NCBI RefSeq assembly: GCF_947499585.1
Contig: NZ_CANMOO010000001.1
Location: forward strand, 930,001 to 994,000
Source: an uncultured Allomuricauda sp.
Lineage (GTDB): Bacteria; Bacteroidota; Bacteroidia; Flavobacteriales; Flavobacteriaceae
Reading direction: 5' to 3'
Length of the DNA: 64,000 bases
Shown: positions 52,646 through 60,194 of the stretch, in pieces
Numbering within the stretch: position 1 is the stretch's first letter
Layout of the letters: each line of letters opens with the position of its first letter
The notes under the pieces: generated by a model
The model's input: the letters and a program-made list of their open reading frames with translations, nothing else
Told to the model about the DNA's origin: nothing
Database searches by the model: none
Position numbers and translations under genes: made by a program

Positions 52646-52668
52646 GCTTCGACAGGCTCAGCGTGACA
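52646..52668. repeat. Dispersed repeat copy, CTTCGACAGGCTCAG type
   Basis: CTTCGACAGGCTCAGCGTGACA matches ACTTCGACACGCTCAGTATGACA at 58041-58063 with three differences. Both lie in intergenic DNA. The element looks like a short interspersed palindromic-type repeat; its right neighbour here is a perfect inverted repeat (52682-52741). Confidence 0.55.
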
Positions 52669-56302: not shown

Positions 56303-57073
56303 TTACTTTATTATTCCTAAAGCCCACACATCTTTGGCCTTCACCAAATTTCGTAGTGCATGTTTAATAATCCATTTCCTTTCTTTGGTGGCATTGGGAG
56401 CCCAAGCTGCAACTAAGGCTTTGGCAGTTTCTGGATTGTCCTTTAAAATATCATTAATGCAATTGGCTACAGATGTTTGCACATATTTGCTTGTGTCATC
56501 TTTTAAATTTTCCAAAATGGGTAGGATAGGAGCAGGGTCTTTAATAAAGATATCCAGTTTGGTGGCCCAAGGCAATCGGGGTCGCACCCCTTCGCTACTT
56601 AAACGGCGTACATGCTTGTTCTTATCTACAGACCAGGTTTCCATTATTTTTAAAGTACGTTCTGGATAGGTTTCCAAATAGGGGCGAATGGTGTATTCCC
56701 CCGTATTCCGTTTGGTAATTTCTTGAACGGCATTCATAGAAAGGTCAAAATCCATCAAGCCATATTTCTCTACATATTTGGCTATTGGCATGACCCAATA
56801 ATACTCCTTGAACATGCCCGTTTCCTTTTCGTTTTCGGGACCAAGAATTTTTATCAGCTGCGAGATAGCGGTGGGATAATCACTGGATAGATGTGCTTTT
56901 AAAGCATCGGCAATCCATTCTACCCGATCCTTAAGTTCTAAGTCATCCACTTTGCCGGCTACAGTTTGTACAAAAGAGCTTTTGTCCAATGCAACTCCCT
57001 GTTCCATGAGTTTGTCCGCCAGCAGGTTTGCCAAATCTGCATCAAACCAAAGTTTTAATTGTTTAAAGGCCAT
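56303..57073 (-). CDS. AlkC/AlkD-like DNA alkylation repair protein (HEAT-like)
   Basis: 256 residues of HEAT-like helical repeats. The segment SEGVRPRLPWA and the repeated helices match the DNA alkylation repair (AlkC-like) family, which removes bulky or charged N-alkyl bases without base flipping. No extra Ig-like domain is present. It is the last gene of the predicted repair operon, 3 bp after the TIGR03915-type gene, so it is very likely co-expressed with it. Glycosylase activity is inferred from the family only. Confidence 0.83.
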   Translation of the reverse strand: MAFKQLKLWFDADLANLLADKLMEQGVALDKSSFVQTVAGKVDDLELKDRVEWIADALKAHLSSDYPTAISQLIKILGPENEKETGMFKEYYWVMPIAKYVEKYGLMDFDLSMNAVQEITKRNTGEYTIRPYLETYPERTLKIMETWSVDKNKHVRRLSSEGVRPRLPWATKLDIFIKDPAPILPILENLKDDTSKYVQTSVANCINDILKDNPETAKALVAAWAPNATKERKWIIKHALRNLVKAKDVWALGIIK

Positions 57074-57076
57074 TAT

Positions 57077-57853
57077 CTATGCTGTTTCTTTCTTTTCACT
57101 AAGATACTTCCAATACCGTTTTGGCACATGTTGTGTGTGCAATTTTCTATTGATTCGCGACTTAATGTTGGTGCTTTTAAAATAGTCGTTCCATAAGGTT
57201 TGGTAATCGTATTCATCATTTAAAAAAGCATCGCTTTTATGGATTTTATTAAAATGAACCTGTTTAAGATTGAGGGAGACCAGCTCTACGTGTTCCAGAT
57301 TATAGAAAATACCATATTTGCGCTTTACATCATAGATCAACCATTGTTGGTCAGCATAACGGTTACGAAAATGTTTTGAAATCAAGGGCAAGACATCAAA
57401 ATCAGGTTCTATATTGGCAAAATAGATATCATCCTTGGTCAATTGAAAGCGAACAAAGGCTTCCATACGGTGTTTTTCACGCCCAACAGAACGTGCCAAT
57501 TGGCTAATGCGAAGCACAATACCATCTGAGTAATCCAGTTGTTTCCCATTTTTGGAGGTGATTAGCTTTTGAATATAGGTATAGAGGATAAGTTCTATGC
57601 CATCTGCTTCACTCAAAAAGGCAAAATATACATTGGTAATGGCATTATGACTTTTGCTGCGTATGCCGTTCCATACACGTTTGGCCTTTTCCACATTGGT
57701 AAATATGGTTTCTGTCTCAGAAAAGAGTCCGCTTTGGCCTTTGGTGTTGCGTTGAATGTCCACCACATCTATTTTTTCTTCAAAGGCCACAAAGACAGTG
57801 GTGAGGAAGCCATTAAAGCTTCCGTCGTAAATGAGGGTTTTTGAGTTTTTCAT
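57077..57853 (-). CDS. TIGR03915-type putative DNA metabolism protein
   Basis: 258 residues. The N-terminus MKNSKTLIYDGSFNGFLTTVFVAFE and the central FVRFQLTKDDIYFANIEPDFDVLPLISKHFRNRYADQQWLIYD-type region (cited by its ends, about residues 129-170) are those of the TIGR03915 (SAM_7_link) family, normally placed next to a TIGR03916 radical SAM protein; in some bacteria the protein is fused to a UdgX-like uracil-DNA glycosylase. That extra domain is absent here. Predicted to act with the radical SAM protein in DNA repair; mechanism unknown. Confidence 0.82.
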   Translation of the reverse strand: MKNSKTLIYDGSFNGFLTTVFVAFEEKIDVVDIQRNTKGQSGLFSETETIFTNVEKAKRVWNGIRSKSHNAITNVYFAFLSEADGIELILYTYIQKLITSKNGKQLDYSDGIVLRISQLARSVGREKHRMEAFVRFQLTKDDIYFANIEPDFDVLPLISKHFRNRYADQQWLIYDVKRKYGIFYNLEHVELVSLNLKQVHFNKIHKSDAFLNDEYDYQTLWNDYFKSTNIKSRINRKLHTQHVPKRYWKYLSEKKETA

Positions 57854-57863
57854 TAGTAATAAA

Positions 57864-58016
57864 TTATGGGTGAAACGAAGTAATCTGCTTTTTTAAAGTA
57901 GCAAGTGATTTCTTGGCCTTGCTTTTGAAAACAATGAGGTCATAGCCTAGACTTAGGATAGTATCTCGACTACGCTCTATAAAATCTGGATTTTCTTGGG
58001 TTTGTAAAGTATTCAT
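57864..58016 (-). CDS. Candidate 50-residue small ORF in the repair operon
   Basis: ATG at 58014-58016, stop TAA at 57864-57866. The 50-residue product is basic and includes GYDLIVFKSKAKKSL. It lies between the radical SAM gene and the TIGR03915-type gene, with 10 bp to the next start. The stretch contains part of the dispersed palindromic repeat (57964-57979), so it may be repeat-derived rather than a real gene. No known family. Confidence 0.35.
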   Translation of the reverse strand: MNTLQTQENPDFIERSRDTILSLGYDLIVFKSKAKKSLATLKKQITSFHP

Positions 58017-58040
58017 GGTGTTCTTTTTTCTATTGTTTAT

Positions 58041-58063
58041 ACTTCGACACGCTCAGTATGACA
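58041..58063. repeat. Dispersed repeat copy, CTTCGACACGCTCAG type
   Basis: ACTTCGACACGCTCAGTATGACA, the second copy of the element at 52646-52668. It lies 8 bp from the stop of the radical SAM gene, inside the predicted repair operon. Confidence 0.5.
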
Positions 58064-58070
58064 ATATCAA

Positions 58071-59333
58071 TTAATTAAATAATGACAATTGTGTACTGTA
58101 CTGATTCCGAAACTTTCCGGTGGATTGTTGTAGAATCATTCCTTTAATTTTCTCCGCATCCAAATCCTTACGTTCCCAATTTCTAGAATCGCAAATCATA
58201 AAATATTTGGCACGGTTAAGGGCCACTCCAATTTTTTTGAGGTGGTCCCAGTTCAATTTTTTAAATCGTCTGGCATTTAAAATCTTTTCAACAGATTGCA
58301 TACCCATTCCAGGAATACGGGCTAGCATACGCTTATCTGCAGTATTGATATCCACAGGAAAATGATGCATATTCCGTAAGGCCCAAGAAAGTTTTGGGTC
58401 TACATCTATATCTAGATTAGGATGGTCATTGTTCAATATTTCATTTACGGCAAAACCATAAAAGCGTAACAACCAATCAGTCTGGTACAACCTATTTTCC
58501 CTTAACATGGGTACTTGTGAGCCAATTGAGGGCAAGCGACTATCATCTGCAACAGGCACGTAACCAGAATAATACACCCGTTTCATATTGTACTGTTTGT
58601 AGTAATAGGTGGCAGAATACATAATGTCCTTATCTGTTTCCCCTGTTGCACCCACAATCATTTGGGTACTTTGACCTGCAGGGGCATATTTTGGAGTGCT
58701 TTTAATGACTTTTCGTTCATTTTTAAAGCGAATCAATTCATTTTTAACCTTTAGCATGGGTTTGGTAAAATCTGCATGCTTTTTATCTGGAGCCAATAGT
58801 TTAAGGCCAGAAATGGTGGGAATTTCAATATTTATCGAGAGGCGGTCCGCGTACAGTCCAGCTTCATACATAAGCTCATCACTGGCATCTGGAATAGATT
58901 TTAAGTGGATGTATCCATTAAAGTTCTCTTCTAGCCGTAATTTTTTAGCTACTGCAATGAGGCGTTCCATGGTATAGTCGGCATTTTTGAAAATACCAGA
59001 ACTTAAAAACAATCCTTCAATATAATTTCTTCTATAAAAGTTGATGGTTAAATCCACCACTTCTTGAATCTTAAAGGCGGCACGTTTTACATCGTTGCTC
59101 TTGCGTGTTACACAATAGGCGCAATCAAAAATACAGTGGTTGGTCAATAATATTTTTAAAAGAGATACACATCTACCATCTTCGGTATAGCTATGACAGA
59201 TACCCATTTTAGTGGTATTGCCCAGACCTTTGTCCTTATTGGTCCTATCACTACCACTACTGGCGCAAGAAACATCGTATTTGGCTGCGTCGGCCAGAAT
59301 ATTCAATTTTTCTTGTATTCGATTAAAATCCAT
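58071..59333 (-). CDS. TIGR03916-type radical SAM protein, putative DNA repair/modification
   Basis: 420 residues. The radical SAM cluster motif is CIFDCAYC (Cys67, Cys71, Cys74); further conserved cysteines occur at 23, 46 and 55. The C-terminal region (about 325-360, INTADKRMLARIPGMGMQ) contains a helix-hairpin-helix DNA-binding element. These two features define the TIGR03916 putative DNA modification/repair family. First gene of the minus-strand repair operon. Its start is 100 bp from that of a divergent S24-type repressor, with shared operators between. Confidence 0.88.
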   Translation of the reverse strand: MDFNRIQEKLNILADAAKYDVSCASSGSDRTNKDKGLGNTTKMGICHSYTEDGRCVSLLKILLTNHCIFDCAYCVTRKSNDVKRAAFKIQEVVDLTINFYRRNYIEGLFLSSGIFKNADYTMERLIAVAKKLRLEENFNGYIHLKSIPDASDELMYEAGLYADRLSINIEIPTISGLKLLAPDKKHADFTKPMLKVKNELIRFKNERKVIKSTPKYAPAGQSTQMIVGATGETDKDIMYSATYYYKQYNMKRVYYSGYVPVADDSRLPSIGSQVPMLRENRLYQTDWLLRFYGFAVNEILNNDHPNLDIDVDPKLSWALRNMHHFPVDINTADKRMLARIPGMGMQSVEKILNARRFKKLNWDHLKKIGVALNRAKYFMICDSRNWERKDLDAEKIKGMILQQSTGKFRNQYSTQLSLFN

Positions 59334-59351
59334 TGTGTTTTGTAATTAATC

Positions 59352-59359
59352 CAAAATTA
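59352..59359 (-). promoter_or_regulatory. Predicted -7 box of the repair operon
   Basis: Minus strand reads TAATTTTG, an exact TAnnTTTG match, 19 bp before the radical SAM ATG at 59333. Operator 1 (59361-59371) lies immediately upstream, where -33/-7 spacer DNA is expected. Confidence 0.6.
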
Positions 59360-59360
59360 T

Positions 59361-59412
59361 GGAAATATTCCTAAAAATGGAAATATTCCAAATTATTTTT
59401 TGGAAATATTCC
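59361..59412. promoter_or_regulatory. Three GGAAATATTCC operators between S24 repressor and repair operon
   Basis: The perfect palindrome GGAAATATTCC occurs at 59361-59371, 59379-59389 and 59402-59412; the last two are extended to TGGAAATATTCCA. Site 1 overlaps the repair-operon promoter spacer and site 3 overlaps that of the repressor. Three near-identical sites covering both promoters are what an autoregulating repressor needs. The binding protein is inferred to be the adjacent S24/XRE regulator. Confidence 0.75.
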
Positions 59413-59428
59413 AAATTTGTTATATTTG
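59399..59428 (+). promoter_or_regulatory. Promoter of the S24 regulator with near-leaderless start
   Basis: TTTG at 59399-59402 (-33) and TATATTTG at 59421-59428 (-7, exact TAnnTTTG) are 18 bp apart. Transcription would start about 5-7 nt after the -7 box, at about the ATG at 59433, so the mRNA may be leaderless. Operator 3 fills the spacer. Prediction from sequence; start site not measured. Confidence 0.65.
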
Positions 59429-59432
59429 AGGT

Positions 59433-60194
59433 ATGGAGAATGAGTTGACACTAAAACGTTTTATTGATATTCGAAGAGATTTGGGGCATACACAGGCCGA
59501 ATTTGCCAAGTTGTTGGGTATTTCCAGTACTACGGCAGATATTGAACGGGGACGCACCAAATTATCGGGTAAAGTAGTGGCTGAGTTGTTGAAACAATTC
59601 AATATTAACCCGCTTTGGTTGTTTGGCGAAAGTGAAGAAAAACATTTGGAGACTTCCAGAACCAGTGTAATTCCGAAGGTAGTGACCGTAGATAGTGCCG
59701 ATAATGACAATATGGTTTTGGTAAATGCGAAAGCTGCTGCTGGATACCCCCAAAATATTGCGGATACTAGTTGGTACCATCAATTACCAGCGTTTGATTT
59801 GCCCATTCCTGAGTTTAGAAATGCCACCTACCGAGGTTTTCAGGTGGAAGGTGATAGTATGTTGCCCAATCTAAGACCTAACGATTGGGTATTGGCCAAA
59901 TCTGTTGAGCATATTGATCACATAAGCGCAAATAAAATGTACGTTGTGGTGTTGCAAGATGCAGTATTGGTCAAGAAGATTGAAAAGCGACCAAACTCCA
60001 ATAATATTACATTAGTTTCTTTGAATGAAACCTACCCACCATACGACATAAAACCCTTCCAGATACAGGAAATCTGGGAAGTGAGCAGTAAATTGACCTT
60101 TAATGTTGATGCCACTACTGACACGGGGCTGTTAAGACAACTTCATCAATCTATGGAGGAGTTGAAACAGCAAATGGGGACTGTAAAAAACTAG
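59433..60194 (+). CDS. LexA-like XRE/S24 transcriptional regulator
   Basis: 253 residues. The N-terminal XRE helix-turn-helix (LGHTQAEFAKLLGISSTTAD, about 18-36) is followed by a linker and an S24/LexA-like domain. A103-G104 in AKAAAGYPQ could be the self-cleavage site, S142 in EGDSMLP is the nucleophile and K181 in VLVKKIEKR the general base; spacings (38 and 39 residues) are close to LexA's (34 and 37). A coiled-coil tail (about 235-250) follows. Divergent from the repair operon, with three palindromes between. Predicted to be a damage-responsive repressor; cleavage is inferred from motif retention. Confidence 0.87.
   Translation: MENELTLKRFIDIRRDLGHTQAEFAKLLGISSTTADIERGRTKLSGKVVAELLKQFNINPLWLFGESEEKHLETSRTSVIPKVVTVDSADNDNMVLVNAKAAAGYPQNIADTSWYHQLPAFDLPIPEFRNATYRGFQVEGDSMLPNLRPNDWVLAKSVEHIDHISANKMYVVVLQDAVLVKKIEKRPNSNNITLVSLNETYPPYDIKPFQIQEIWEVSSKLTFNVDATTDTGLLRQLHQSMEELKQQMGTVKN

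Follow-up and report, generated by a model that had tools for sequence, protein, structure and literature searches.

A probable non-canonical LexA repressor and its predicted three-promoter SOS regulon in an uncultured Allomuricauda sp.

Repressor, operators and divergent operon

We analysed a stretch of 64,000 nucleotides (nt), here called the window, from an uncultured Allomuricauda sp. (assembly GCF_947499585.1, contig NZ_CANMOO010000001.1, positions 930,001 to 994,000). The window end carries a divergent pair of transcription units separated by a gap of 99 bp (Table 1). An earlier note on this DNA had described the pair as an XRE/S24 repressor divergent from an operon of a TIGR03916 radical SAM gene, a TIGR03915-type gene, and an AlkC-like gene, and the positions of the open reading frames (ORFs) and their family matches bear this layout out. 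The TIGR03916 and TIGR03915 models match at 672 bits (cut-off 343.5) and 269 bits (cut-off 112.25), respectively, and the third operon gene matches PF08713 at 29.2 bits (cut-off 21).

Table 1 Features of the divergent locus, in window positions.
Feature	Position	Strand	Basis
Repressor, 253 aa, probable non-canonical LexA (GGA-N5-TCC group)	59433-60194	+	HTH_3 N-terminal, S24 C-terminal, A103-G104, S142, K181
TIGR03916 radical SAM, putative DNA repair/modification, operon gene 1	58071-59333	-	ORF and NCBIfam model
TIGR03915/DUF4130 protein, stand-alone	57077-57853	-	ORF and family models; UdgX domain not found
AlkC-like alkylpurine DNA glycosylase (predicted), HEAT-like part only, 256 aa	56303-57073	-	PF08713 and profile match
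Operator 1 (predicted), GGAAATATTCC	59361-59371		Sequence match
Operator 2 (predicted), GGAAATATTCC	59379-59389		Sequence match
Operator 3 (predicted), GGAAATATTCC	59402-59412		Between -33-like TTTG and -7-like box of repressor promoter
Likely repressor -7 box TATATTTG	59421-59428	+	18 nt downstream of TTTG at 59399-59402

Both repressor domains score above their cut-offs, HTH_3 (PF01381) with an E value of 7.3e-8 and Peptidase_S24 with an E value of 2.7e-13. The self-cleavage residues A103-G104, S142, and K181, which the earlier note had read as intact, are indeed present, and all four are invariant both in an alignment of 15 sequences (the window protein plus those of 14 named-genome loci out of 80) and in a separate repressor alignment of 30 rows. 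The closest named relatives of the repressor are found in Flagellimonas and Muricauda species, with identities of up to 96%. The protein is kept at 84-96% identity next to the same operon genes in Flagellimonas, Muricauda, Maribacter, and Croceitalea. It also matches phage repressor families (phrog_4, E value of 1.2e-25, residues 8-207), and its top NCBIfam match, below the cut-off, is the DicA repressor model.

The DNA-binding domain of LexA (LexA_DNA_bind, PF01726) has no match in the repressor and none in the whole genome, and the same model used as a control gave matches in 10 of 14 genomes, above the cut-off in 9. We therefore rejected canonical LexA as the identity of the switch. The genome holds one further S24 match, a UmuD-like protein. 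The lack of a LexA_DNA_bind match, this sole other S24 protein, and the conservation of the operators described below uphold the proposal that the repressor is a self-regulating SOS-type repressor independent of LexA.

The divergent gap contains three TGGAAATATTCC boxes with spacings of 18 and 23 bp, which the earlier note had missed. Operator 3 lies between a TTTG element and TATATTTG, which we take to be the -7 box according to the Bacteroidetes TAnnTTTG consensus, so that binding at this operator should block transcription of the repressor itself. At least two GGA-W5-TCC boxes, and mostly three or four, are found upstream of the repressor in all 30 same-genus loci (own included), and in every one of these loci a TAnnTTTG box follows within 30 bp of the last operator. 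A promoter scan for sigma-70 elements gave no excess over shuffles (16 vs 15.5). The 80 loci from named genomes, a set that overlaps with the 30, have two to four boxes within 400 bp in 79 cases, and the four boxes of the other locus (L096) are further upstream. We note that the repressor ATG is only 4 bases past the putative -7 box, and the repressor mRNA may thus be nearly leaderless. The same distance is seen in 11 of the 30 same-genus loci, with 6-147 bases in the others.

Predicted regulon and distribution of the operators

A search of the whole genome found tandem boxes at three promoters only, and the repressor promoter has the most boxes among them. The second site is upstream of a gene for a DinB-type polymerase (dinB2), with a DnaE-type gene behind it, of which only a part of 92 aa was read, and an SRAP gene is divergent from this pair. 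The third site is directly upstream of a radical SAM gene of the PA0069 family (482 bits, cut-off 360), which belongs to an SplB-like class. When the tandem pattern was searched backwards as a control, 0 matches were found in each of 15 genomes. The tandem arrangement, not the single box, is the informative feature. Control counts for single boxes came near the real ones (5 vs 9 for GGAAATATTCC and 4 vs 7 for GGAAATAATCC), and single matches fall mostly within ORFs: all six GGAAATATTCC matches outside the repressor promoter and six of the seven GGAAATAATCC matches are inside ORFs of at least 90 aa, the seventh GGAAATAATCC match being one of the PA0069 pair. Likewise, each of the seven TGGAW5TCCA boxes that occur singly away from the three promoters overlaps an ORF.

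In 14 relatives, 29 tandem sites were found outside the repressor promoter. PA0069-type radical SAM genes account for 12 of them and dinB2, whether accompanied by SRAP or not, for 16; the last is at a UmuC gene. The UmuC protein at the last site (L254) is 51% identical to the UmuC of the present genome over 416 aa. A longest-ORF rule overran the site in L253, L255, and L259 (with an extra ORF in L228), and these loci were re-read; dinB2 starts next to the tandem site in the first three, split over two frames in L255. A full-length PA0069 match lies at the tandem site of L256. One genome (G007) has no tandem site outside the repressor promoter, and another (G003; 270 contigs, 92% complete) has two such sites, yet no repressor match was found in it. 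As all 29 sites of the relatives are at these kinds of genes or at UmuC, we believe that the boxes mark a dispersed SOS regulon, and within this genus the tandem pattern serves to list the regulon members with precision. The genes, residues, and operators, together with the predicted regulon and its conservation, can be read directly from the genomes compared here.

On the scale of the family, 199 genomes (one per genus) gave a repressor match in 134, with at least 45% identity in 72, own included. GGA-N5-TCC boxes precede the repressor in all 29 loci at 72-87% identity, in 19 of 20 loci hand-picked from the 42 at 45-68%, and in none of 20 loci hand-picked from the matches at 36% or below; letter-shuffled upstream regions contain such a box in about 4-6% of cases. 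The exception in the middle group (L174) has no box within 500 bp. Boxes at 45% identity or more and none at 36% or less indicate that the operator type and the repressor group go together. The operon genes follow the repressor closely, with TIGR03915 and/or TIGR03916 within the 1.5-kb flank in all but one of the 29 closer loci and at least one of the two adjoining the repressor in 79 of the 80 named-genome loci. In the remaining locus (L103, Maribacter sp. ACAM166), the repressor has its operator boxes, but neither TIGR03916 nor TIGR03915 was matched in its vicinity. Exact CTAA-N5-TTAG boxes, expected for the group at 36% or below, were found in none of its 20 loci (L194-L213). Nine of these loci contain CTAC-N5-GTAG dyads, which may be a diverged operator of a second repressor group; similar diverged motifs have been described (PMC8565304).

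A published repressor family and competing explanations

The earlier note knew of no characterised example of such a switch. One was in fact published in 2021, when a Bacteroidetes repressor family with HTH_3 and S24 domains was reported to replace LexA, and a phage ancestry was proposed for it (PMC8565304). One group of this family, found mainly in Flavobacteriaceae, binds GGA-N5-TCC, with a regulon of DinB-DnaE, SplB, COG1573-COG4277, SRAP, and umuDC. Binding was demonstrated by electrophoretic mobility shift assays (EMSA) with altered sites, and induction by mitomycin C was demonstrated by reverse transcription quantitative PCR, both with Salegentibacter agarivorans (WP_075324850.1), in which recA was not induced (PMC8565304). 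The main text of that paper mentions neither Muricauda nor Maribacter. The present repressor resembles this published group in its domains, its Ala-Gly site and Ser-Lys pair, its boxes, its predicted autoregulation, its occurrence in Flavobacteriaceae lacking canonical LexA, and a predicted regulon of DinB-DnaE, SplB, the COG4277 operon, and SRAP. It differs in the added AlkC-like operon gene, in a TIGR03915 partner that has no uracil-DNA glycosylase (UDG) domain, and in that no tandem box was found at recA or umuCD here. HdiR of Lactococcus lactis and FddR of Francisella are also autoregulated, phage-like S24 repressors of a damage response, but they belong to other clades and have small regulons, and the FddR operator is GTG-N11-CAC (PMC13148647). 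Canonical LexA of E. coli shares the self-cleaving S24 domain and the SOS function, but has the other DNA-binding domain, PF01726, which was not found in the present genome.

Based on these comparisons, the switch is very probably a Bacteroidetes non-canonical LexA of the GGA-N5-TCC group that governs a dispersed SOS regulon of three promoters, and damage-triggered self-cleavage is expected. In the mechanism we propose, repressor dimers would occupy TGGA-W5-TCC boxes arranged in tandem at a distance of about two helical turns, and the bound repressor would shut its own promoter together with the divergent TIGR03916-TIGR03915-AlkC operon, as well as dinB2-dnaE with the divergent SRAP gene and the SplB-like (PA0069-family) radical SAM gene. 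Upon DNA damage, RecA filaments would trigger self-cleavage at Ala103-Gly104 through the Ser142/Lys181 dyad, and all three promoter regions would open. Bacteria of this group, which lack LexA, would then have their SOS response under a phage-like repressor whose operators can be read directly from the sequence.

Several points weigh against this assignment. The comparison of operons assumes that COG4277 is TIGR03916 and that COG1573 is its TIGR03915 partner. The putative orthology of the repressor to WP_075324850.1 is judged from the way the family is distributed and from shared operators, domains, residues, and regulon members, and not from a direct alignment; the sharp split between loci at 45% identity or more and those at 36% or less lends indirect support to a place in the published group. 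The AlphaFold model of the repressor was too poor to be used, with a mean predicted local distance difference test (pLDDT) score of 36. For this organism, we infer operator binding, RecA-triggered cleavage, and induction, as well as the activity and co-transcription of AlkC. In the present genome, the upstream regions of recA, umuCD, and the other dinB gave no tandem operator, and the regulation of umuDC that was predicted for several species (PMC8565304) is accordingly not seen here. Finally, the authors of that study state that no non-cleavable mutant was tested (PMC8565304).

Among the competing explanations, a very improbable one is that the repressor senses alkylation or another signal instead of RecA filaments. 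The presence of AlkC in the operon would fit such a signal, and the published work on relatives leaves room for it, as it did not include a non-cleavable mutant (PMC8565304). However, a search of the 5-kb flank found no AlkC in 63 of the 80 named-genome loci, while the operators and the cleavage residues persist. The remaining regulon members are error-prone polymerase, SRAP, and SplB-like genes, which are typical of SOS, and relatives respond to mitomycin C (PMC8565304).

A switch whose reach ends at its own gene and the divergent operon, in the manner of the minimal HdiR and FddR modules, is very unlikely. The earlier note had read the locus as a self-regulated cassette, and the divergent, self-contained layout is typical of these modules (PMC13148647); the repressor promoter is also the richest in boxes within this genome. 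The same tandem boxes at dinB2-dnaE/SRAP and at the PA0069-family gene, with the relatives' sites at the same kinds of genes or UmuC, speak for the dispersed regulon instead. A CI-type repressor of a prophage or mobile element lying beside repair genes by chance would agree with the phrog_4 and DicA matches and with the phage ancestry proposed for the family (PMC8565304), but this reading is very unlikely: the protein stays 84-96% identical next to these operon genes in four genera, and no phage-family match was found in the five neighbouring proteins scanned. The switch that the earlier note pointed out is thus real, conserved, and nearly correctly read, and the system to which it belongs is already published and broader than the cassette.

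AlkC, the TIGR03915/TIGR03916 pair and a dispersed repeat

The third operon gene was rightly named AlkC-like, as its profile matches the AlkC glycosylase chains 5vi0/5vhv with an E value of 2.6e-51 over residues 6-255, well ahead of the next three matches at 1.3e-11, one of which is an AlkD2 chain. The profile was made from 17 sequences, namely the window protein and 16 copies; a seventeenth copy, cut by a contig end, was omitted. The solved chain has 369 residues compared with 256 in the window protein, and its C-terminal third, presumably an Ig-like domain, is uncovered. AlkC is an occasional third gene, present in 17 of the 80 named-genome loci on the operon strand and next to TIGR03915. 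In a sample of 40 genomes of the genus (own included), AlkC at 67% identity or more was found in 10 genomes, and only relatives at about 40% in 6 more. This occasional third gene is the locally new part of the system, a modest one.

AlkC had also been proposed to take the place of the UdgX glycosylase, a reading we abandon. The UdgX domain (TIGR03914) was not found in the genome; among 14 control genomes, the model scored above the cut-off in one. In all 74 neighbours measured, TIGR03915 is encoded as one protein of 238-259 aa (79 loci have a match, and 5 were not measured). DUF4130 is the only domain found in the window TIGR03915 gene. AlkC, itself seen in only 17 of the 80 loci, therefore does not stand in for UdgX. 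A literature search for UdgX together with radical SAM and SOS found no paper in the collection searched. If the COG equation is right, the published reading of the COG1573 partner as a uracil-DNA glycosylase (PMC8565304) does not apply to the window gene.

A literature search for TIGR03916 and TIGR03915 by name found no paper in the collection searched; DUF4130 has been listed as a predicted mutagenesis-related enzyme (PMC3765255). A predicted model of DUF4130 (mean pLDDT of 72; based on an alignment of the window protein with 34 long copies out of 74) is closest to chains of RecJ, Cdc45, and PAP phosphatase, with VIA Z values reaching 7.9 over most of its length, although according to the tool's own note, values of this size may mean only a common arrangement. 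Foldseek with the same model gave no match at an E value of 0.001 or below, and sequence profile comparisons of DUF4130 with RecJ, Cdc45, and DHH proteins found no link. Given the lack of sequence support and this limit of the Z values, a RecJ/Cdc45-like fold of TIGR03915/DUF4130 stays a weak lead. The N-terminal YDGSFNG of the protein could be a degenerate DHH motif I. We offer it as a tentative and rather doubtful suggestion that the divergent operon may encode an SOS-inducible repair pathway in which TIGR03916 acts with a degenerate RecJ/Cdc45-like (DHH/DHHA1-fold) TIGR03915, with a minimal AlkC added in some Flagellimonas/Muricauda lineages. If true, a phage-derived SOS repressor would have the repair of alkylation damage under its control.

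A short repeat, CTTCGACACGCTCAGTATGACA, is located between operon genes at 58042-58063, and a second copy with 3 mismatches is found at 52647-52668. Similar sequences occur between the operator and the repressor start in some relatives, and CTTCGACACGCTCAGTATGACA looks like a dispersed repeat of the repetitive extragenic palindromic (REP) type.

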